Below, piece by piece: positions 3,442-57,785 of a stretch of DNA of 64,000 bases. Where the stretch lies: NCBI GenBank assembly GCA_031841125.1, contig CM063113.1:40950197-41014196 (forward strand), given 5' to 3'. Within the stretch, counting starts at the first letter, position 1. The number at the start of each line of letters is the position of its first letter. The position numbers and the translations under genes are program-made. A model generated the notes under the pieces. The model ran no database searches. It saw only the letters and a program-made list of their open reading frames with translations, and was not told the origin of the DNA. The stretch comes from Acanthococcus lagerstroemiae (lineage: Eukaryota; Arthropoda; Insecta; Hemiptera; Eriococcidae).

Positions 3442-3596
3442 TGTTGAAGTTTCTATGTAACGTAATGTAATCAGTAATTTATGTAACGTAATGTAATCAG
3501 TAATTTACTGTTGAAGTTTCTATGTAACAAAGTGTTTAAAGTTTTTTTAGTATGTGAGTTTAATATATATTCAGTTACGAATTATTAATTTCATTA
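3442..3596 (+). repeat. 5' LTR of the Copia element
   Basis: This 155-bp LTR starts TGTTGAAG and ends TTTCATTA, so its ends are TG...TA rather than the usual TG...CA. It contains a 26-bp unit (TATGTAACGTAATGTAATCA...) twice in tandem (3454-3479, 3480-3505) and a 20-bp phrase TGTTGAAGTTTCTATGTAAC at both 3442 and 3509. A TATA-like stretch TTTAATATATATT near 3559 could serve transcription. Confidence 0.95.
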
Positions 3597-3610
3597 GGTT
3601 ATGGGTTCAG
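3597..3610 (+). promoter_or_regulatory. primer-binding site (initiator Met tRNA fragment)
   Basis: The sequence GGTTATGGGTTCAG begins at the first base after the 5' LTR. Copia-type elements prime with an internal fragment of initiator methionine tRNA. The complement of that tRNA region is close to GGTTATGGGCCCAG, so this is a match with two differences. Confidence 0.7.
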
Positions 3611-3706
3611 ACGTTTCGTCTCGCGTTTAATATGCTCTGTAAGTCAGTAAAGTAGTCAGTTTTTCGTTTCGAGTCGTTATTTTGATGTGGAGTGTTGCTC
3701 AAGTTC

Positions 3707-6700
3707 ATGGATAAGATGGAACTGGCGAAACATATCAAACCACTCGCTGGTGAAGCAGACTGGCCTGTGTGGAAGCGGAAAATCAGAGATCTACTTGATT
3801 ACCATGAAGGAGCCGTAGATGCGATTGATGGCAAGTTATCAAAACCTGATCCACTCGGAGAAATAAACGCTACGAAAGAAGAGAAGAAAGAGCACAAAGC
3901 AGCTTGTGACCTGTATCGTAAGGCCAATAGTTATGCCAAGTCTATGATCACAAGTACTGTTTCAGATTCAGTCTACCAAAAGATTATGGATAAGACTACC
4001 GCTCAGGAAGCCTGGGAAGCTTTGAAAAGTCATTTCGAAGCTACTTCACAGGATCAGCTTTTCAAGGTATGTGCAGATTTTTTCGCCTTCAGTTGGACAT
4101 TGAGTGATGAGGTTTCAACCCATGTTGCGAAGCTTCGAACTCTATGGAATGATTTGAATAATGGATTAAAAGCAAAGAACCAGAATCCCTTACCAGACCT
4201 AATTTTGGTCTGTAAGGTGATCCATATTCTTCCTAGCAACTTCGAGAACTTTAAATCCAGTTGGATGTTACTCTCAAAAGATGAAACGAGAACATTCGAT
4301 GAGTTATGTTCGCAGCTCATAGTTTATGAAAGAACTCGCAACTCAAATCAGCAAAGTAGTAGTAGCAGTACAGATCAAGAAGCTCTTCTTACTAGATCGA
4401 ATCAGAAGAAGAATAGTAGTTCTGCTAAACCAAAAAATCACTCAAGTTCAGAGTCCAAACCGAGTAATAATTGTAATTACTGTCACAAAGCTGGTCATTG
4501 GGTTCGTCAGTGTAGAAAGTGGATTGCTGATGGACGCCCAGCTAGAGATTCAGCTAGTAGTGCTAAGAGTAGTGCTCAGAGCAATTCAGTAGAAACTCTT
4601 GCTCTTGTATCGATTCATAATTCAGTTTTAGCTGCTGAACCGAATGTAGAGGATTGGTGGATTGATAACGGCGCTACTAAGCATGTCACAAACCGTTCCG
4701 ATTGGTTTAGTTCATTCAGTAAGTTTGAAAGCTCGCATAGCATCAAAGCAGCCGGTAACGAGCAATTGGATGCAGTTGGTAGCGGTATCATCGAGATCGT
4801 CTCATCAGTTAATGGTCAGCGCCGGCATTTACAGCTTAAAGATGTTTGGCTTGTCCCTAGAATCGCCAGACATTTATTTTCACCATTGGCAGCGCATGAT
4901 AAACAGCAAAATAGCAAGTTTGAATCTACCGTCACCTCCTGTACGTTTTCTGTGAATGGTGCTGCTGTAATCAAAGGTGTTCGAGAGAAGAATGGAACGT
5001 TGTACAAGGCAGAGATTCAGACTGTTAGTTCGAATAACAGTTCCACAGTCAACATCGCGGAATCGAGTGATCTGCTTCAGCTTTATCACGAGAGATGGGG
5101 TCACCAAGATAAACGTCATGTCAAAGAAAAGCTTGAACGAGAATTAGAGATTAAAATCAAGCTAGAGAATAAGATTTGTGAACCGTGCGTTTATGGTAAA
5201 GCTCATCGTTTACCGTTTGGTACTAGAAGAAAAGTTTCAAAACCAGGAGAGCTCATTTCTACCGATGTTTGTGGTCCTTTTTATGAGTCATTTCAGAAGA
5301 AGCGTTATTTGGTTGTATTCAAGGACTGTTACACTAAATACAGATATGCTTTTGTCATCAAAGAGAAGTCAGATGTCAAAGGAGTTTTAGAACAAATGCT
5401 TACTCATGCAGAAAAACAAGGACACAACATCAAAGAGCTGCTCAGTGATAATGGTGGTGAATTCGACAATTCAGAGGTTTGTGATATTTTGCAAACAAGG
5501 GGTATCACTCAGAGATTAACGGCTCCCTACACACCAGAGCAGAACGGCAGCAGTGAACGAGAAAACAGAACGATTGTCGAGATGGCTAGAACTTTCATGC
5601 ACTCGAATTCAGAGATACAGTTTCCACAAGCAATTTGGGCTGAGTTTGTCACCACAGCAGTCTACATTCTGAACAGAACAGGAAAATCATCAGAAAATGG
5701 TGTCAGTCCATACGAGCTATGGTTTGGTAAGAAACCAAGAATCAGTCATCTGCGTATCATCAGTTCAGCTTGCTATGTCCATGTTCCAAAGCAACAGCGT
5801 CGCAAAATGGACAGAAAGGCTCAAAAAGGTTACCTTGTTGGTTACAATGCAGAAGAGCGTTATCGAGTATACATTCCAGAGAAAAACAAGGTCGTGTTGT
5901 CCCGAGACATTCAGTTTCAAGAAACACTTCGTGATTGTGCAGAAAAAGTAAAGGTACCTTTTTATAGTCCACCTGCAAAATATGAAGATGAAGAAGCAGA
6001 AAAACCAGAAACTGAACCAGCCTCAGATTCCTCAGATTTAGAATCAGAAAAATCAAAATCATCAGAAAATAGTCGAACTTTGCGCAATAGAGATTTTATT
6101 CACGCGTCAAAGTACTACGATGATTTTGTGTGTGTGATGACTACTGAGGAAGAGCCACAGAGTTACGAAGAAGCGCTCCAGCGACCAGATAGCGCATCCT
6201 GGCAAACAGCAATGGATAGTGAAATGTCTTCTTTGAAAGAAAATCACACATTTGAGTTAGCTGATCTGCCTCCAAGTGCCAAGGCAATACCTTGTAAATG
6301 GGTTTTCAAGTTGAAACTAAATCCAGATGGTTCTGTTTCAAGGTATAAAGCTCGGGTTGTTGCAAAAGGGTATGATCAAAGAAAAGGCATAGACTACAGT
6401 AAAACGTTCAGCCCAGTCGCCAAGCTACAGACTATCAGATTAATGCTCGGCGTTGCAGCAATAGAGAGGATGCATCTAGTCCAGTTTGATGTGTCAACTG
6501 CATTTCTCTATGGCGAGCTTGATGAAACCATTTTTATGAGGCAGCCGGAAGGATATGATGATGGGTCAGGCAGAGTTTGGAGACTTGCAAGAAGTCTGTA
6601 TGGGCTCAAGCAATCGCCGAGATGTTGGAATAGGCGAATTGGCAGGTTCTTGGAATCACTAATGTTCAAAGTCAGTGATGAAGAGGCATGTATGTTTATC

Positions 6701-7669
6701 CGAGAAGAGAATGGAGTTAAGATTATCCTAGTATTGTATGTTGATGATAGTCTTATCGCCTCCACCAGCCATGCAGAATTAGAAACGTTTTTAAGTCAAC
6801 TCAGAGCAGAATTCAAGATCATGTCAGAAGAAGCAAAGTATTTTCTAGGACTAGAGATTGAGAAGCAGTCAAATGGTGATATTAAAGTGTGCCAGAAGTC
6901 CTATGCACAGAAGATACTCGAAAAGTTCAATTTTGTGGGGTGTAAGCCAGTTAAAACACCTATATTGAGCTCTGTGCCAGGGAAAGCATCAGAAAAAGAA
7001 AACACGTACCCGTACAGACAGGCTGTAGGATCATTGATGTACTTAATGTTGGGCTCGAGACCTGATTTAGCTTATGCAGTTGGTTTCCTATCCAGATCAC
7101 TTGAAAATCCGACCTCAGATGACATCGGCAGACTAAAAAGAGTGTTCAGGGACATTGCTGGTACCATCAACGTCGGGTTGTTGTATCACCATAATGCAGA
7201 GAAAGGTATTCTCACCTGTTATTCAGATGCAGATTTTGGTGGGTGTATCCAGACAGGCAGATCAACATCAGGAGTTTTAGTAACTTATGCAGGAGCAGCC
7301 GTCTCTTGGTTAAGTCAACGCCAAGGTTCAGTTACTGACTCCACTACAGAAGCTGAAATAGTTGCAGCTAGTGAAGCCGCAAAGGAAATAATTTGGCTTA
7401 GTCGTCTTCTGAGTCAAATGAGCGAGCTGTTGGAAGTGCCGATTTTGCAGATTGATAATACAGCAGCTGTGAGGTTAGCCGAAAATCCAGAGAATCATAG
7501 AAGAACAAAACATATCCAAAGGAAACACTTCTTTGTCCGAGAGAAAGTGTCAGAGGAAAGCCTAGCAGTCGAACAAGTGTCATCAGAGAACCAAGTGGCT
7601 GATGTGATGACCAAACCAATAGCAGCGCCCCGTTTTCAAATTTTGTGTAATAAAATGGGTCTTTTATAA
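3707..7669 (+). CDS. Copia Gag-Pol polyprotein, intact
   Basis: The protein has 1320 codons from the ATG at 3707 (a second ATG follows at 3716; no ATG lies further upstream in frame, although the frame is open to a GTG at 3692). In order it has a Gag region, a zinc knuckle CNYCHKAGHWVRQC from about residue 256, and an aspartic protease motif WWIDNGAT with Asp320 (DNG where DSG or DTG is usual). A GAG-pre-integrase HHCC segment follows near 460-490, then integrase with Asp520, Asp581 and Glu617 (exact DD35E spacing). Reverse transcriptase has LYVDDS with the Asp pair at 1013-1014, and RNase H closes the protein (CYSDADFGG, STTEAE). No frameshift separates Gag from Pol, which is typical of single-frame Copia elements. 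It should make all enzymes needed for its own transposition in virus-like particles. Confidence 0.96.
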   Translation: MDKMELAKHIKPLAGEADWPVWKRKIRDLLDYHEGAVDAIDGKLSKPDPLGEINATKEEKKEHKAACDLYRKANSYAKSMITSTVSDSVYQKIMDKTTAQEAWEALKSHFEATSQDQLFKVCADFFAFSWTLSDEVSTHVAKLRTLWNDLNNGLKAKNQNPLPDLILVCKVIHILPSNFENFKSSWMLLSKDETRTFDELCSQLIVYERTRNSNQQSSSSSTDQEALLTRSNQKKNSSSAKPKNHSSSESKPSNNCNYCHKAGHWVRQCRKWIADGRPARDSASSAKSSAQSNSVETLALVSIHNSVLAAEPNVEDWWIDNGATKHVTNRSDWFSSFSKFESSHSIKAAGNEQLDAVGSGIIEIVSSVNGQRRHLQLKDVWLVPRIARHLFSPLAAHDKQQNSKFESTVTSCTFSVNGAAVIKGVREKNGTLYKAEIQTVSSNNSSTVNIAESSDLLQLYHERWGHQDKRHVKEKLERELEIKIKLENKICEPCVYGKAHRLPFGTRRKVSKPGELISTDVCGPFYESFQKKRYLVVFKDCYTKYRYAFVIKEKSDVKGVLEQMLTHAEKQGHNIKELLSDNGGEFDNSEVCDILQTRGITQRLTAPYTPEQNGSSERENRTIVEMARTFMHSNSEIQFPQAIWAEFVTTAVYILNRTGKSSENGVSPYELWFGKKPRISHLRIISSACYVHVPKQQRRKMDRKAQKGYLVGYNAEERYRVYIPEKNKVVLSRDIQFQETLRDCAEKVKVPFYSPPAKYEDEEAEKPETEPASDSSDLESEKSKSSENSRTLRNRDFIHASKYYDDFVCVMTTEEEPQSYEEALQRPDSASWQTAMDSEMSSLKENHTFELADLPPSAKAIPCKWVFKLKLNPDGSVSRYKARVVAKGYDQRKGIDYSKTFSPVAKLQTIRLMLGVAAIERMHLVQFDVSTAFLYGELDETIFMRQPEGYDDGSGRVWRLARSLYGLKQSPRCWNRRIGRFLESLMFKVSDEEACMFIREENGVKIILVLYVDDSLIASTSHAELETFLSQLRAEFKIMSEEAKYFLGLEIEKQSNGDIKVCQKSYAQKILEKFNFVGCKPVKTPILSSVPGKASEKENTYPYRQAVGSLMYLMLGSRPDLAYAVGFLSRSLENPTSDDIGRLKRVFRDIAGTINVGLLYHHNAEKGILTCYSDADFGGCIQTGRSTSGVLVTYAGAAVSWLSQRQGSVTDSTTEAEIVAASEAAKEIIWLSRLLSQMSELLEVPILQIDNTAAVRLAENPENHRRTKHIQRKHFFVREKVSEESLAVEQVSSENQVADVMTKPIAAPRFQILCNKMGLL

Positions 7670-7757
7670 AGCGCTCCTCTTAGTGCCTTAGTATTAATTC
7701 TTGTTGTAGAGTTTAATAGTTTATTAATTTTTTTTTTTTAAGGTTTATTTTACCTTT

Positions 7758-7770
7758 AAACAAGGGAAAG
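7758..7770 (+). promoter_or_regulatory. polypurine tract of the Copia element
   Basis: AAACAAGGGAAAG ends exactly at the first base of the 3' LTR. It is the expected primer for plus-strand DNA synthesis. It lies about 90 bp after the Gag-Pol stop codon. Confidence 0.8.
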
Positions 7771-7925
7771 TGTTGAAGTTTCTATGTAACGTAATGTAAT
7801 CAGTAATTTATGTAACGTAATGTAATCAGTAATTTACTGTTGAAGTTTCTATGTAACAAAGTGTTTAAAGTTTTTTTAGTATGTGAGTTTAATATATATT
7901 CAGTTACGAATTATTAATTTCATTA
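7771..7925 (+). repeat. 3' LTR of the Copia element
   Basis: This is the same 155 bases as 3442-3596, including both internal duplications. It is followed by the CGAGG target duplication at 7926-7930. The absence of differences between the LTRs indicates little time since insertion, or recent gene conversion. Confidence 0.95.
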
Positions 7926-46004: not shown

Positions 46005-46820
46005 GTGGTCGGGCGGAGAAAGCGACGGAGTCAAAGGGCCAACCAGGACTCGGCACCAGCACCTCCGAAAGCCGTTGCATCTAAGAGGACAACGGCGGCA
46101 GCTAAGGAAACGCTGCTGCGAAAGAGTAGACAGAGGCAAGCAGCGATAGTCATCGCCAAGACACGAGAAGAGGACAGCTATGCCGCTGTCATACGAAAGG
46201 CGAAGCAAGAAGTGACTCCGTAACAGAATGGCCTGGAGATACCGAGAATGCGCTGTACTCTAAAGGGAGAAATGGTGCTGGAGCTGCGCAACTTACCCGA
46301 GAAAGAGGACAATGCTCAAAGGTTCACAGCGCAGCTTCAAGAGGCCTCAGGTGCAATGGCGACCGTGAAGCAGCTTCAGCGAAACACCACCCTTTTTCGC
46401 CTCGACATAGAAGAATCGGTGAAAGAAGCCACACAGAGGCCGATTCTGCAACGAATGCGAGGTGGAGGACAGATAGCGAAGAAGCTGGTGCCAACCAGCA
46501 GGGGCCTGGAAATTCTGAAGAGTAACCCCCTGAGGATTGGATGCAGTAACTGTAGGATTCGCTCCCTAGAGAGAACCAACAGCACCCCCACGTGCTACAG
46601 GTGCCTGCGTCCTGGGCACATGACGAAGGAGTGCCAGAACCAGGACCTGGAGCGTCCGTGCTACCGCTGCGGGGAGAGAGGACTTATCGCAGCGGTATGC
46701 CGTGCCGAAGCAACATGCCCCGTATGCAAGAAAATCGGGGGGCAAAACTGTGGGCACGCCATAGGAAGGCGCGGCTGTCAGGCAAAGGCAGTGAGCGAGA
46801 ACCGAAGACGAACGCGATAA
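46005..46820 (+). pseudogene. R1-like ORF1 (Gag) with three zinc knuckles, interrupted
   Basis: The frame is shared by 46005-46223 and 46248-46820 and is broken by an in-frame stop at 46221-46223. The second part has the region before the knuckles (SRGLEILKSNPLRIGCSNCR) and then CYRCLRPGHMTKEC, CYRCGERGLIAAVC (normally His where Ala or Leu now stand) and CPVCKKIGGQNCGH. This triple-knuckle pattern is typical of Gag proteins of R1/I/Jockey-type non-LTR elements and binds element RNA. The stop and a degraded second knuckle indicate an inactive copy. Confidence 0.88.
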
Positions 46821-50162: not shown

Positions 50163-51943
50163 CACATCCAGTGCTGGAAAAGAGATGCTTGGTACTGCCA
50201 AGAAGAAGAGTCCCGACTGGTTTCGTGATAATGAGCGTATTATTGAGCCAAAGCTTTCTAAAATTAAGAAATGCCACATCGATGCCATCAAGAACCCTAG
50301 GACAAAGTTCTTAAGGTCAGTTTCAAGGCAACATAAAATGAGCTCCAGAACGTTACCAAACAGCCAACGAACTCATGGTCGTTGAAAAAAAGAGAGTAGC
50401 TGAATAGCTACTATAATCAGCAAGACTACAGCAGCTTCTATCAGGCAGTATGAGCTATATGCCCCCCCCCCTCCCAAGAAACTTGATGTACCTATAAATA
50501 GTAGCAACCGGAAACTATTAAAAGAGAGGAACGAAATCGAAAAGAAGTAGACAAAATACTTCAATAAGCTTCAGAATCAAATTAGGCCATTGGACGTTGG
50601 CTCATTATCCAAAATTCCACACTATCCTGTTATAGAACACGTTGATAGTCCACCTACCCTACTAGTTACTGCTGTAAAACTGATAGCAAAAATATTCAAT
50701 AACTGTCTTTCTCAGATTATTGAACCTGTAACTCCACCATCGCAAGCTGGTTTCCAAAAGAATAGAGGGACTGCTGATATGATCTTTACATTGCGCCAAT
50801 TAATGAAAAAAGCTCATGAGCAGAATGTAGACCTCTTTATTGCATTTGTAGACTTGTTAAAGGCATTAGACACCGTAGATAGAAACACTTTATGGAGTGT
50901 ATTCGAGAAGTTTGGCTGCCCTCAGAAGATGTTGCAGGTGATTGAGGATTTACATATTGACAACACATCGAGAGTTGTACTTGGTCAAGGTCCCAGCTCC
51001 CTATTCAAACATGTTATTGAGTCCGGAATAGACGCACATTAGCTCCAACACTATTCATGGCATTCACAAGTCCAGCGATGCACCTGGTTGACACAAAACT
51101 AACTGCTAGAAGTGTGTGTATCAGATCGAGGAGTGATGGAGACGTAACTGACTTACAATGCTGAAAGGCAACCTCCAAATGTAAGAGAACATACATTTTG
51201 GAGCTTCAGTACTCTAATGATAGTGTTCTAGTTGCGGCATCCCGGGAAAGGGAACAATCAAGTGCTTCAACAACGCCTACACTGCACTCGAGGTGGAAGT
51301 ATATGCCAGCAAGACTAAGATCCTGATGCCATTAGAAAAAGAATCACAATCTGCAGTTGGCCAAAACACTTTGAGGCCGTGCCCGCTTTGCAGTTCATGC
51401 GTCTCGGGTTCGAGTGTCACCAACGCCAGAAAGCCAGTAATATTCGAATACCCACACTAATATCCTAGTGAACACAGCGACTACAATATGAATCGAGGTG
51501 TAATCACAACGCGTCCTGCAACTCCGTCATTTCATACGAACAAGGCATTACTTAGCACGGCGTGTTATTACCAGATCAGAAAGATTAGTACTGTGCGTTT
51601 GCATGTCAAAGACAGCTTACTCAAAGACGTGAAACACGTAGCTAGTAAACGAACTGCGGCTGCACACTCTTCGGGTACGGAGAAGGAAAAGTCTAACGCA
51701 ACAAAACCGTGGAAAAAGCAACGGCAAACTACCTCGACTATAACCGCGACCGCCAACATTTGGCATCGGATACGGCACCTGAAGAAGAAGACACATTGGA
51801 AAATTTATCCTCCTTCTGCTACCTGGGAAACACCGTAACAAATTAGCTAGACATGGACACTGAAATTCAAAGAAGAATCCAGACCGCATTAGGAGCCATC
51901 TAAAAACCGGATCAGAGTCTTCCGCAACCATAATATATCCATC
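50163..51943 (+). pseudogene. LINE ORF2, left part (5'-truncated, decayed)
   Basis: It begins with a conserved segment after the missing endonuclease (KKKSPDWFRDNERII). It continues through the linker (PLDVGSLSKIPHYPVIEHVD) to reverse transcriptase: PPSQAGFQKNRGTADMIF, FIAFVDLLKALDTVDR (Leu-Lys-Ala where SKAFDT is usual) and LQYSNDSVLVA (YSND in place of the catalytic YADD). It then reaches the region before the break (DMDTEIQRRIQTALGAI). Many stops and frameshifts separate these blocks. The rest of the LINE continues at 57786. The clade is CR1/RTE-like but I do not assign it further. Confidence 0.88.
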
Positions 51944-53549
51944 CAGTGGCGCCCATCGTAGGGTCAAGGTGGTGCGGCCGCACCACCTCTCCGGGGGTGG
52001 GTCCCCCAAAATTGAGGGGGTGGTAGCGTTTTTTGAGGAAAAAGAAAATGAAAAAGAAATACTAAATCACTGAAAAATATCGCGAATAGGAATATCAAAT
52101 ATGTTAAAGAAATAATATACTGAAGTGCGAAGTAAACAGAAGAGTAGACATAGCTGTATATAGGTAGGTGCTCCCATTCTCAAGTGAAGTAATGGTCCCT
52201 CTTGAAGAGCGATAACGAACGCATTGCCACGAAACAGCAGTGGGAATTACGACGATGTGTTCGGGACTGTTTTTTCACCACTTGAAACAAAACACTGTTT
52301 ATTGGGATGGCCCATCTATACTTGGATTTTTTGGTCCCCAATGTTGCTGGTTTTATGAGTAAAAAATTTTATAATTTTTTGTTTTTCAAAAAATTGAAAA
52401 AAATGTGATGCTGGGATTTAGGGTTAAAAATCTCCAAAAGTTCAACATTTTCTAAAAATTCAGAAAATTCAATATTTTAACGTTTTATATTTTTCTTCCT
52501 GAAAGTCTTCCTATAGAAGATTTTGTTAAAACTCACAAGGCATAAAAAATGGTTACTCTTCCAATTATGAAAAAAGTGGAGCCAAAACTCTCTCTCTGAA
52601 AGTAATTAATTTTTTTCAAAAAATCAGGATTTAAATGTGCTGTAATCGTCTCTGTCTCTTTAATTTTTAAAGAAAACTTCAAAAAAAAATCTCCCCTGGA
52701 AAAAATTATTTTTTTAATTTTTTGTTGTTCTAAGGACAAGTTGGCTCTGCTCATTTTGTATTTTGAAAGGGATATTTTTTTGAAGTCGTTAATAATTGAA
52801 ATGAAATTTTTAGAATGGATATTTAGAAAAGAATAATTTTGAAAATTTTTCGTTCTTTGTAAATTTATATTTTAAGAGGTTATTTGGCTTCACTTTTCTC
52901 ATACTTTGGATTGGAATACATAAATATTCTGTTTTGTTTGTTTGTTTTTAGTTTTTTTTTCTTAAATTTTTTTACTCATAACTTTGTGCCACATCTTTCA
53001 ATTTAAAACAAACAAAATACCAAATTTTTGCTTGTAAAAAGACAAATCTGAGATGTCACATTTCAATGTTTTCAATTTTAACAGTAAAACACGTTTTAGA
53101 GTCCATTTTTTTCAATTTAATGATTATTATGTTCGAGAAATTATTTTCCTATGTACATACAAAAAAAATCAGAAGCAACTTACTCATCAAGACATTGTTT
53201 TCTCATCGAAAAAAAAAAATTGTCATCCTCAAATATTGAAAAATTTAAAGACTCGAAGATTGATATCAAGTATTGCGTAACGCAGATGCAGATTATGAAA
53301 AAGACTGGGCAAATAATTCTCAGAAGTTAGAACACCGGCCGATATTTGTTGGGAGATTTTCCTAGAAAACTTAGTGGCGTGCGAATTATAAGATAAGGTT
53401 TTCATCTGTCCAGAAATTGTCATGTCTCTCAATCATTTATCAACTAAGCGTGCGCGTGGAAAGAAGTGATTTAACTCGTGTCGAGTCATCGTGTGTATTG
53501 TTTTACTGTTTTATTTTTCGTTTTTTTAAATTTATTAAATTTATTAAAA

Positions 53550-53715
53550 ATGGAAAATCTTAGTGTTTGTGTGTGTGGAAAGCGAAGAAAAAAAGGAGAA
53601 AATACCACGAATTGGTTAAGGCACGTCGATGCGTGTAAACGTAAATTAAAACTCAAAAAAGCTTCGGCATCAATGGATAATTTTTTGCTACCAAAAAGAA
53701 GAAAACCATCAGAAG
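53550..53715 (+). CDS. hAT transposase exon 1 (zinc finger)
   Basis: It begins at ATG 53550 (MENLSVCVCGKRRKKGEN...). It carries Cys-x-Cys, then HVDAC, i.e. C-x-C-x15-H-x3-C, a small zinc finger of the kind found at the front of many hAT proteins. A basic tail with KKASASMDNFLLPKRRKP follows, which may act as a nuclear localisation signal. It ends at the donor GTAAGT after 166 bases, phase 1. An upstream in-frame ATG at 53478 exists; I prefer 53550 because the finger follows directly. Confidence 0.82.
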
Positions 53716-53809
53716 GTAAGTACTTGAAAATCTTAGAATGAAACGTGATGCGTTTGCCCTGATTCTAATTTACATAAAATATAAAAATTCTACTACTTGC
53801 TGTTTTTAG

Positions 53810-53899
53810 TTGATGCGAGTTCAGACACAGGTGCTATTGCTTTGGAAAATATTGCTGAACCAGAAATTATGCCAGAGTTGATGGAAAAAAGTGGAACAG
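53810..53899 (+). CDS. hAT transposase exon 2
   Basis: This 90-bp phase-1 exon lies between TTTTTAG and GTATGT. It encodes an acidic, low-complexity stretch (VDASSDTGAIALENIAEPEI...). Length divisible by three with phase 1 on both sides keeps the frame whether included or skipped. Confidence 0.75.
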
Positions 53900-53987
53900 G
53901 TATGTAAATTAAATTTTCTTTGAACTTGCTTACATAATTTTCATTGTTTTTTGGATAGTAAAAATTAATCCTACTTCTTTATTCCAG

Positions 53988-54128
53988 TTACTGCAATACA
54001 GTCTGTATCTTTGACTGAAAATTTGGACATTAACCCTATTCTATCAACTGAAAAATCGGACACAGACCCTATTGGTTCCGAAAGTACTGGTGAAATTATG
54101 TCAGAGCCTGAGCAAAAAAGTAGAGCTG
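53988..54128 (+). CDS. hAT transposase exon 3
   Basis: This 141-bp phase-1 exon lies between TTTATTCCAG and GTATGA. It encodes TAIQSVSLTENLDINPILST and a further acidic stretch. As a symmetrical exon it also preserves the frame. Confidence 0.75.
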
Positions 54129-54255
54129 GTATGAATATTGAATTTTTATTGAAAATACTGTTAAACTCGGAGTATGCGCACTGTTCGTGTGAAAAAAAAA
54201 ATCTGCAAGAAGTATTATGGCATGCAAATTTCAAATTCTAAATTTTTTGTAATAG

Positions 54256-54399
54256 ATGAACTGCAACCTGAAAACTTCAATGAAACTTCAGATGCTAATA
54301 CTACTGATGTTACTCTCATAAACCCTGATTCCACTGCTCACAACCCTCTCAAAAATATAAATGAAACTCCATCGGAACCTTTGCTTAGTACTGGAATTG
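54256..54399 (+). CDS. hAT transposase exon 4
   Basis: This 144-bp phase-1 exon lies between TTTTTTGTAATAG and GTAAGT. It encodes DELQPENFNETSDANTTDVT and more Asn/Thr/Pro-rich sequence. Similar in style to exons 2 and 3. Confidence 0.75.
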
Positions 54400-55030
54400 G
54401 TAAGTTCATCAAATTTTCTATGAGAAAACGCTACGTTTGATGCACTGACATTCATTTACGATTTTCCTTCAATATCTGATTCATTTCTACGAAATTTCAA
54501 AGACTGGTAAATAGGTAAAGTTGATCAATTAAATTTAAATGAGTTATTGTTATATTTTTTTGAACTTATAATAAATGAAAAGAATACTGAAATATTTCAT
54601 TTAAAATTTTCAAAAATGGAGTTGATTGAAAAAACGCCTAAAATTAGATGAAACAATTTCACAATAAATTATGCTAAATAAAGAATAATAATGAAAAAAA
54701 AATTAAAAACCTAAAATTTTTAACAAAAAGCTGTTTAATTAATAAATATAATTAAATAAAATAAAAAATTTCCAGGGTTGACCAAATTTTCAATTTTGCA
54801 TATTTAAACTTCAAAACTTAAAAATAAAATTTCAACGTAATTTTTTTGAATGAATTAATTTTTTTCAAAATATTAAACGTGAAAAAATAAAGCTAATCAT
54901 GCCACTAGTCATTGTAACTGTACCGGGCGTATTATAAAATAAAAACAAAAAAACAAAAAAAAGTTATGCTTATATTTTAATTTTATCTTTTCAAAGAAAA
55001 TAATGAATTTTTTCACGTTTTTCATTTTAG

Positions 55031-57471
55031 GAGTAACTGTTGATTGTGGAGACGAATTGAACAATTTCGCACCGATTTCTAGAGATCCTGCAACTTTTTG
55101 TCAGATGAAAACTTTTAATGAGGCAACTGTATCATATTTGCTCAAAGAGGGTGCATTCCAGCCTCAATCTGCCGATATGCCTGGTAAGAAATTTCCATTG
55201 GACAAATATAATCGCTCATTCCATGAAGCTTGGTACTGGAGAACGTTACCATGTGGCAGAAAAGAACGACGAAATTGGTTGAGCTATTCACCAAAAAATG
55301 ACAGAATGTATTGCACCCATTGTATATTATTTGCGAAAGATGGGCAGAATGCATGGACTAAAACAGGCTGTCATGCATGGAATCGAGCAACTAGTAGCTT
55401 AATTGCCCATGAAACATCGGCGGAGCACATTACGGCTTCAGTGAAGGCCCTTTACAGAGAGGCTACTCTTCCACTTATCCCTTCTTTGGAAAAAAGCTTG
55501 AAAGAAAAAGTTGAACAGAATAGAGAACTAGTAAGACAATTGATTGAAGTGACAATATATTTGGGTCGACATTGTCTTGCTTTTCGTGGTCATCGAGAAG
55601 GTTGGAAAGAAAAAATGATGGGAAATTTCAAAGATCTTGTAATGCTGCTGGCAAAATATTCTCCGGCTATGTCTGCATATGTCGCTAAATTACAATCATC
55701 GAAGAAAAAGTCATGGAATTATTTATCGTGGAGCAATCAAAACCGTTTAATCGATGCTGTTGCGACTTTCATTAAAAATGTAATCAAGAAAGAGTTATAT
55801 GAATCAAAGTTTTTTAGTATTTCACTGGACACTACCTTCGATGTTTCCAAAAAGGAGCAGCTGTCTTTCATAGTAAGGTATGTTTCACCAAATGGTACTG
55901 TTGTTGAACGGCTAATAAGTTTGAACGAAAGTTCAGTAACCACAGGTGAAGCTTTATTTAAATTGTTCCAAGAGGTATGCGAAGAATTACACCTCGATTG
56001 GGAAAAATATCTCGTCGGTCAGTCATATGACGGAGCAGCAAATATGCGAGGCTCCTACTCAGGTTTACAAGCTAAAGTAAAAGATAAGAACCCCAGCGCT
56101 GTGTACATATGGTGTTATGCGCATCGATTGAATTTAGTCGTCACTGATGTAGTTGGATGTTGCATAAATGCAACGCATATGTTCGGGGTATTGGAAACTC
56201 TCTTTGATTTTATATGTTCGAGTAAAAATCGTGTAAAAATTTATGAAGATTATCAAAAAGAACGTTATCCAAAGAAACGTCTTCGACGTGTCAAGAGAGT
56301 AGAAACAACGAGGTGGATGTCTCATTCGTTTGCCCTTAATGTCGTACTCGAGACATATGATGCGATTTTTGACACGTTATCAGAAGTGGCGTCTTCTACC
56401 GGATCGCAAGAAAGAAGTGCTGTTGTTCAGGCAACTTCTCTCTTGAACAACATCACTTCTGAACGATTTATTCTAACAGCGTTAATATTTAAAAAAAATT
56501 TTTCTATTCTGCAGCCATTAAGTGCAATGCTCCAAAGCATAGATATTGATCTAATAGGCGCCACTCATTACATCGACTCGGTTCAAACAACCTTATCGAA
56601 TTTAAGAACCGAAGAAGAATTTCAAAATATTCTTCATGAAAAAGACGAATTCATTGAAATACATCAACGAGAAGACTATGTTTTTACACCGTTACCAGCT
56701 GCTCGTGCCCGAAGAGTGAAAAGACAGGCAGGAGAACAAGCTACAGATGAAGTGATCGACAACCCTACCAAAAATTTTGAAATTGGAACTTTTTTAACCA
56801 TTTTTGACACGATCTCGACTCAGATTTCGGAAAGATTTAATAAGGAGGCTCAAGGAATTTACAAAGATTTGAGTCTTTTCACCAAACGAAGATTAGCCGA
56901 AATAAAAAACGATCATAAATGTTTTCCGAAAGACGCTTTTTCAGAATTTTGCAAAGTGTATGGAAAATTTGTGAATATGGAAAACCTGAAGTCCGAATAT
57001 CTGCAATTTGTTGATATTTACCCATCTTTTGAAGCAGCTCAGAAACTTCCTGAGAATTTGCACGAAGAAGATGCAAACAGCGAAGAAGAAAATGACGAAG
57101 ATAATTCTGAATCTGAATCTCAAATTTTCGAGATTGAAGATGAAGAAAGTAGAAAAATTAAAGAGCCAACCAACAGTTGCAGCCTTCTAACAGTTTTCCA
57201 AATTTGCCACAATTCGGGCTTGAAAAGCATTTTCGTTGAAATTTACACGGCCCTGCACATTGCAGTCACACTTTTTGTTTCTAGCGCGACCACCGAAAGA
57301 TCGTTTTCTAAATTAAAGTTGGTAAAAAACAAACTGAGGAGTACCATGACTGAAAACCGATTAGCTTCATTAATGATAATTGCCTGCGAAAATGACATTC
57401 AGATTGATAATGACGAAGTTATTGAAATATTCAGTAAATATAGCTCTTTTTTGAGTAAAGAATTGATGTAA
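55031..57471 (+). CDS. hAT transposase exon 5, TTF-zinc-finger and DDE domain (ZMYM1-like)
   Basis: This 2441-bp exon follows the acceptor TTTTCATTTTAG and ends at TAA 57471. With exons 1-4 the gene has 2982 coding bases, 993 codons plus stop. A TTF-type zinc-binding domain lies at about 244-315 (WYWRTLPCGRKERRNWLSY, YCTHCILF, ending HETSAEH). The catalytic acids fit hAT: Asp447 in SLDTTFD, Asp514 in YDGAANMRG and Glu936 in SATTERSFS, with the C-x2-H pair Cys542/His545 (WCYAHRLN). The carboxy end (SATTERSFSKLKLVKNKLRS) is the hAT dimerisation region. No stop or frameshift interrupts it. It is close to ZMYM1/THAP-type hAT proteins found in insects. It may be active or recently active. Confidence 0.93.
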
Positions 57472-57675
57472 AAATTGAAAAAAAAATTTTATGTTATTAT
57501 GTTAAAATATTCCTTTTGTAAAAAAAAGTTTGTACCTACCTGTTTCAAAAATTTTTCTTACGTATGATTTTTTTGTGTGTGGGGGGGGGGTAGCGATCGA
57601 TTGAGCTGGGGGGGGGTGGGTGGTCTTCGAAAAAAAATCTCGCACCACCTCCAAAAAAAGTAATGGGCGCTACTG

Positions 57676-57777
57676 TACATATTATGGGCACTACATACGT
57701 GAGACATAAAACATAAGACGTAAAGAAGTAAGATATAAGAAGACATAAGATTTGAAAAAGTAAAACATATAAACATA
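57676..57777. repeat. ACATAA/AGA-rich simple sequence between hAT end and target copy
   Basis: Words ACATAAAACATAAGACGT, AGATATAAGAAGACATAAG and AAACATATAAACATAA repeat every 8-14 bp. The stretch belongs neither to the hAT inverted repeat nor to the LINE. Confidence 0.7.
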
Positions 57778-57785
57778 AATCCATC

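Follow-up and report, generated by a model that had tools for sequence, protein, structure and literature searches.

A hAT element with a five-exon transposase gene and apparently recent sister copies in the genome of Acanthococcus lagerstroemiae

A stretch of 64,000 nucleotides from the hemipteran insect Acanthococcus lagerstroemiae (assembly GCA_031841125.1, contig CM063113.1, positions 40,950,197 to 41,014,196 of the forward strand), here called the window and used for all position numbers, contains a hAT element that measures 5732 bp from terminus to terminus and that appears to lie within a broken long interspersed nuclear element (LINE). Its extent and the features of its ends are:

51944..57675, plus strand: complete hAT element, whose termini recur in six of seven sister copies
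51944..51956, plus strand: left terminal inverted repeat, CAGTGGCGCCCAT
57663..57675, minus strand: right terminal inverted repeat, CAGTAGCGCCCAT, identical to the left repeat at 12 of 13 positions
51967..51988, no strand: perfect 22-bp palindrome, AGGTGGTGCGG/CCGCACCACCT, 23 bp inward of the left end

Terminal repeats of 13 bp with such a match are of the short kind that hAT elements carry, and the pattern CAGTRGCGCCCAT fits exactly at only two sites in the window, which are the two termini. A sequence-only reading of this DNA had described both ends as recognisable, and the match between the repeats and the recurrence of the same ends in the sister copies bear this out. The palindrome is a candidate binding site for the transposase; its core GGTGGTGCG, comprising nine arm bases, recurs once in inverted orientation near the right end, at 57641-57649. 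Between the ends lies a gene of five exons, exons 1 to 4 of which are supported by the splice and coding tests given below:

53550..53715, plus strand: exon 1, with the start codon and an N-terminal CxC..NTNW..H..C finger (53568-53636)
53810..53899, plus strand: exon 2, phase 1-1, linker
53988..54128, plus strand: exon 3, phase 1-1, linker
54256..54399, plus strand: exon 4, phase 1-1, linker
55031..57471, plus strand: exon 5, with zinc finger, DUF4371, RNase H-like core, hAT C-terminal dimerisation region and stop

The five exons total 2982 nt, or 993 codons plus a stop codon that is the only one and terminal, and the four introns are all GT-AG, with every junction in phase 1. Since exon 1 also joins exon 5 in frame, exons 2 to 4 are optional for the reading frame and were therefore tested separately. 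When the DNA separating exon 1 from exon 5 was put through 500 dinucleotide shuffles, no stop-free phase-1 internal exon chain of 375 nt arose, and the longest measured 108 nt. The splice-site patterns in this test were fitted to the observed sites, and to that extent it favours the observed chain; an exon chain formed by chance is rejected. When scored with the codon usage of exon 5, exons 1 to 4 gave +21.6, +23.6, +25.1 and +22.9 bits, the predicted frame always being the best, and 14 of the 15 intron frames were negative, the remaining one reaching +1.9. Exon 5 itself sits inside an open frame of 842 codons, the longest in 200 shuffles of the element being 193 codons. The exon coordinates, introns and shuffles thus confirm the earlier description of five exons with canonical splice sites and 2982 bases free of internal stops. 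None of the five poly(A) hexamers tested occurs between the stop codon and the right end, and tRNA and Rfam scans gave no matches.

The 3' half of exon 3, together with its donor and the start of the following intron (54056-54153), is a 72% duplicate of 53821-53924, at exon 2. A duplication of this type keeps the frame because exons 2 to 4 are in phase 1 on both sides, and duplicated phase-1 linker exons are one way in which the linker of a transposase can grow without frame loss. This duplication, 102 bp of DNA past the right terminus and the other genomic copies had not been part of the sequence-only reading.

The following residues and domain were placed within exon 5:

55312..55428, plus strand: C2-H2 (TTF-like) zinc finger, exon-5 C94, C97, H126 and H132, from a PF25431 match and conservation
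55828..55830, plus strand: probable first catalytic Asp, exon-5 residue 266 (protein D447), in at least 90% of the aligned rows and on the first core strand of the model
56029..56031, plus strand: probable second catalytic Asp, exon-5 residue 333 (protein D514), in at least 90% of the aligned rows and at the end of a core strand
57295..57297, plus strand: catalytic Glu, exon-5 residue 755 (protein E936), invariant and aligned with the ERTFS motif of Hermes

The finger is presumably of the kind named TTF. Both catalytic Asp residues are probable assignments made by conservation and strand position, and the invariant D270 lies close to the first of them. A Pfam scan identified DUF4371 (PF14291, E 3e-14), and the hAT C-terminus (PF05699) reached 21.1 bits where the cut-off is 21.4 (E 0.00027), with the Hermes alignment covering that stretch as well; precomputed annotation shows PF05699 in many of the 120 listed relatives and not in the relative P0001 considered below. 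The predicted fold of exon 5 is that of the Hermes transposase of Musca domestica, a member of another hAT group, and comprises the DDE-bearing, RNase H-like catalytic core, the helical insertion domain and the C-terminus, at 12-14% identity in structural alignments. A PDB search with the single exon-5 sequence gave 0 matches; a profile search did find Hermes. The TTF-like finger, DDE residues and hAT C-terminus that had been noted from the letters of the DNA are therefore upheld by Pfam matches, conservation and the Hermes alignment. The label 'ZMYM1-like' is only an automatic database name: a Pfam scan to E 1 gave five matches, none of them to an MYM-type zinc finger, and the gene is not ZMYM1. 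The exon-1 finger matches the N-termini of 9 of the 25 relatives that have at least 60 residues there, and linker exons 2 to 4 have no convincing match among the relatives.

The host assembly (658 Mb, 438 contigs) was searched for further copies, as the sequence-only reading had proposed. A protein search and a DNA search with the left end each returned the same eight near-identical copies, which are the window copy and L023 on contig C8, L021, L022, L024 and L027 on C3, L025 on C1 and L026 on C7. The seven sisters have 98.2-99.3% DNA identity to the window element; six are full length, and L022 is without about 138 bp at its left end. The six two-ended sisters carry the termini of the window copy, with one base different in the right end of L027, and have the 8-bp target duplications expected of hAT elements, perfect (8/8) in L021, L023, L025, L026 and L027 and matching at 7/8 in L024. 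These termini and duplications fix the bounds of the element at 51944-57675 and show independent transposition. A search with the right end gave the same eight copies and, in addition, a locus on C2 (L045; C2:35893527-35893807, minus strand) that retains just the final 282 bp of the element; its alignment of 289 columns has 1 mismatch and 9 gap columns. Examination of 6.7 kb upstream of this fragment revealed no left end, and it is a truncated but young piece that was kept out of the eight-copy count.

Only 5 substitutions are common to two or more copies, and the differences are mostly private to one copy. Divergence from the column majority, itself built from these same eight copies, is least in L026 (0.05%), reaches 0.48% in L022 and stands at 0.24% in the window copy. 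The insect mutation rate is near 3e-9 per site per generation, at which the divergence of the copies would correspond to between roughly 0.2 and 1.6 million generations. Neither older relics nor short elements with both ends turned up when the genome was searched with the protein and with each end, and the other hAT matches in the host genome have at most 42% protein identity to the window family. Old decay of the C1 copy, L025, which shows 82% protein identity and 18 stops, was considered and rejected, as its DNA is 98.4% identical and comparison with the majority reveals four stops and three length changes.

Empty sites were approximated by joining the flanks of each sister and comparing the resulting open frame with that of wrongly spaced controls. 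The joined flanks of L021, L023, L024 and L025 gave 193, 209, 173 and 153 codons, versus 66-185 in controls, one L025 control being longer, and those of L026 and L027 gave 73 and 31 codons, versus 64-69 and 27-30. The left junction of L022 (C3 near 21998817) adjoins LINE-like sequence; lacking its left end, this copy should be immobile and could still make transposase. L021 is bracketed by a pair of 127-bp stretches of like orientation that are 96% identical to each other and reverse-transcriptase-like. L026 (C7 near 38.31M) is nearest the majority yet broken, and may have moved with the transposase of another copy or been broken since.

The surroundings of the window copy itself are less regular:

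51936..51943, plus strand: left copy of the likely 8-bp target duplication, TATCCATC
57778..57785, plus strand: likely right copy of the target duplication, AATCCATC, matching at 7/8, with 0.05 such matches expected per 150 bp
57676..57777, no strand: 102 bp of extra DNA, A-rich and ACATAAG-like
50551..51943, plus strand: left part of the broken host LINE, with RVT_1 in its first 163 codons
57786..58336, plus strand: presumed right part of the broken host LINE, from a reading of the frame

If the 102 bp are set aside, the left and right flanks may be taken for a single LINE, a reading based on the 7/8 duplication and on the LINE frame. Eight bases into the 102 bp, at 57684-57694, stands a degenerate version of the right terminus, ATGGGCACTAC; with up to one mismatch in 11 bases, the plus strand of the window has only two such places. 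The 102-bp stretch is not found beside the right ends of the seven sister copies. Our guess is that insertion, or a later event, changed the sequence to the right of the window copy, for example through filler DNA at repair. The joined-flank frame lends no support to this treatment of the 102 bp, being 173 codons with them kept versus 139 without. The three frames of the LINE contain 15, 28 and 25 stops in the 464 codons of the left part and 10, 13 and 7 in the 183 codons of the right part, and the RVT_1 match stops part-way through the profile. A LINE protein search across the insertion site gave 21 candidates, none of them significant, and a Pfam scan of the joined LINE peptide gave no match. 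The earlier view that the element is nested in a dead LINE agrees with the RVT_1 match and with the many stops on both sides, the right part being a presumptive piece of the same LINE.

All five exons are without stop, insertion or deletion in four of the eight copies (window, L021, L022 and L023), and the four GT-AG splice pairs are kept in all eight. The broken copies have a stop and a 3-nt deletion (L024), four stops and three length changes (L025), 1-nt and 28-nt deletions (L026) or four deletions (L027). Compared with the majority, the intact copies together show 21 nonsynonymous and 6 synonymous changes, each copy having from 1 to 10 nonsynonymous changes and the window copy one amino-acid change. 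With 2256 nonsynonymous sites (changes to stop included) and 723 synonymous sites, a ratio of 3.12, this gives a ratio of nonsynonymous to synonymous rates (dN/dS) of 1.1, with 95% limits of 0.44-3.4 and a binomial p of 1.0 versus neutrality, which is not a strong test because it rests on only 27 changes. The intact copies do have fewer changes in coding positions (25/11928) than in non-coding ones (49/10910; Fisher p 0.0015), and the broken copies show no such difference (p 0.32). We do not read this deficit as selection, because the proportion of nonsynonymous to synonymous changes is neutral and the non-coding sequence is rich in homopolymers. The present copies are thus compatible with drift, with weak selection still within the limits of dN/dS, and the earlier suggestion that they are under selection for the protein is not supported.

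Selection is not required to explain open frames in copies as young as these: when exon 5 was evolved neutrally, by substitutions only, until 0.5% of the protein had changed, 121 of 200 runs remained stop-free. With neutral change taken to 25% of the protein, at least five stops were gained in all 200 runs. The window protein keeps 117 of the 121 columns that are at least 90% conserved in 64 relatives, one of its four departures being a mere fragment start; in a leave-one-out comparison, individual relatives show 0 to 17 departures at such columns. This pattern supports long-term constraint on the lineage before the copies were dispersed.

The relatives of the transposase include aphid and thrips hAT proteins (P0005, P0011, P0014, P0018 and P0020) with 47-50% identity over 96-99% of exon 5, and many such relatives carry the database name 'zinc finger MYM-type protein 1(-like)'. 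The aphid relatives, four of these five, share the exon-1 finger with the window protein. The list of relatives contains no near-identical named protein. An NCBI contig of 9358 bp (P0001) is identical to window exon 5 at 784 of 788 residues; one of its 4 differences is the private change of the window copy, and the other three are differences from the majority that occur in none of the eight copies. In a first tree, the window protein groups with thrips proteins and P0017 (97% support in the Shimodaira-Hasegawa-like approximate likelihood-ratio test, SH-aLRT) on a branch of 0.59 changes per site; a second tree with fewer rows leaves the grouping open and gives the window a branch of 0.53. The relatives in both trees are from databases, and the second also includes other hAT families of the host genome. 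No DNA relatives were found in viral and prokaryote genome contigs.

The Tip100 transposase is a DUF4371-type protein, and the pairing of DUF4371 with a hAT C-terminus that marks the Tip group is found in the window protein. Tip100 of Ipomoea purpurea is described as having 11-bp repeats and 808 aa (PMC12511174), and it resembles the window family in its short CAG-starting terminal repeats, 8-bp duplications and similar size of the transposase core. Set side by side by description, Tip100 is a 3.8-kb element of a plant host, whereas the window element is 5.7 kb, with five exons and an added N-terminal finger and linker. BuT2 of Drosophila buzzatii, a Tip-group element, is described with a predicted five-exon gene, DUF4371, a hAT C-terminus, 12-bp repeats and 8-bp duplications (PMC3942097). 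A five-exon hAT gene is therefore not new, and BuT2 is like the window element in exon number, DUF4371, hAT C-terminus and short repeats. BuT2 is smaller, with 2.8 kb, 643 aa and exons of 133-500 bp (PMC3942097), whereas exon 5 of the window element alone makes up four fifths of its protein. From its domains, the element is best filed as a putative new family of the DUF4371-bearing (Tip100-like) hAT group. No description of this family was noticed in the open-licence literature searched, which is not proof of absence.

We conclude with high confidence that the window element is a full-length member of a hAT cut-and-paste transposon family that has few copies and was recently amplified. That the family was recently active, as the sequence-only reading had proposed, is well supported by eight copies at 98-99% DNA identity, target duplications matching at 8/8 in five of them and at 7/8 in one, and four open genes, and the copies most likely stem from one recent burst. 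Several observations weigh against this conclusion. The 8 bases directly outside the two ends of the window copy match at 4/8 only, and the 7/8 match between TATCCATC and AATCCATC comes only 102 bp past the right end; conserved prolines upstream of the catalytic Glu are altered in the window protein (exon-5 V735, F748); and four of the eight copies are broken, including L026, the closest to the majority. It is scarcely conceivable that segmental duplication rather than transposition made the copies, as might be thought from the presence of four of the eight on contig C3, since the flanks differ and the six two-ended sisters have target duplications matching at 8/8 or 7/8. A domesticated host gene, lying between transposon ends and kept by selection, could account for the open 993-codon frame, for the strong long-term conservation of the lineage and for the scarcity of coding relative to non-coding changes in the intact copies (p 0.0015), and dN/dS limits that reach down to 0.44 would accommodate it. 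Such a gene would be expected at a single stable locus, with its ends lost and dN/dS well below 1, and what is seen instead are eight near-identical dispersed copies, six of them two-ended sisters with their own target duplications, intact terminal repeats, four broken copies and a dN/dS of 1.1 among the intact ones; copies, duplications and ratio together lead us to reject this highly improbable explanation.

A more serious alternative, to which we would give somewhat less than an even chance, is that the element is young but dead, with no copy now making a working transposase. Half of the copies are broken, the intact ones are 1 to 10 nonsynonymous changes from the majority, two conserved prolines are gone from the window protein, and 121 of 200 neutral runs stay stop-free; on the other hand, four of the eight genes are open with their splice sites conserved, and the window protein is only one amino-acid change from the majority. 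The window copy, with both termini intact, could encode transposase, and it is possible that the family is still able to move. We are doubtful of the further idea that the family arrived recently by horizontal transfer and still jumps, which draws on copies that are less than 0.5% from the majority, on the lack of older relics and on named relatives in aphids and thrips. The lack of older relatives in its own genome and the presence of relatives in aphids and thrips are compatible with horizontal arrival and are no proof of it.

The mechanism of hAT transposases is established for Hermes, and by analogy a recently amplified cut-and-paste element of this kind would work as follows. A spliced mRNA would give the 993-aa transposase, whose N-terminal finger and second zinc finger would bind both the terminal repeats and the subterminal ones; the RNase H-like DDE core, together with the inserted helical domain and the C-terminal dimerisation region, would carry out both excision and integration elsewhere, the latter with a stagger of 8 bp. 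All eight copies probably go back to one active source, or to a few, in a single recent burst, after which the inserted copies would have drifted, leaving four genes open and four broken. As a low-copy, well-bounded family with four open genes and six clean sister sites, it is a good subject for studies of hAT activity, transposase splicing and possible horizontal arrival, and is otherwise an ordinary young transposon.

Other mobile elements were seen in the genome and in the window. Four copies of a second hAT family of the host genome (L015, L016, L017 and L019) have 99.2-99.6% DNA identity to one another, and L014 and L018 look like members of it; its proteins are about 31% identical to that of the window element, and its identity of more than 99% implies that there has been more than one recent hAT burst in the host genome. 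An open frame at 46224-46820 of the window has weak zinc-knuckle matches, below the Pfam cut-off, that resemble a non-LTR (long terminal repeat) retrotransposon gag. At 3442-7925 lies an intact Copia LTR retrotransposon, with a 1327-codon open frame (3686-7669) that includes gag, integrase and reverse transcriptase domains. Its two 155-bp LTRs (3442-3596 and 7771-7925) are identical and it is flanked by a 5-bp target duplication, CGAGG; it is a very young insertion.

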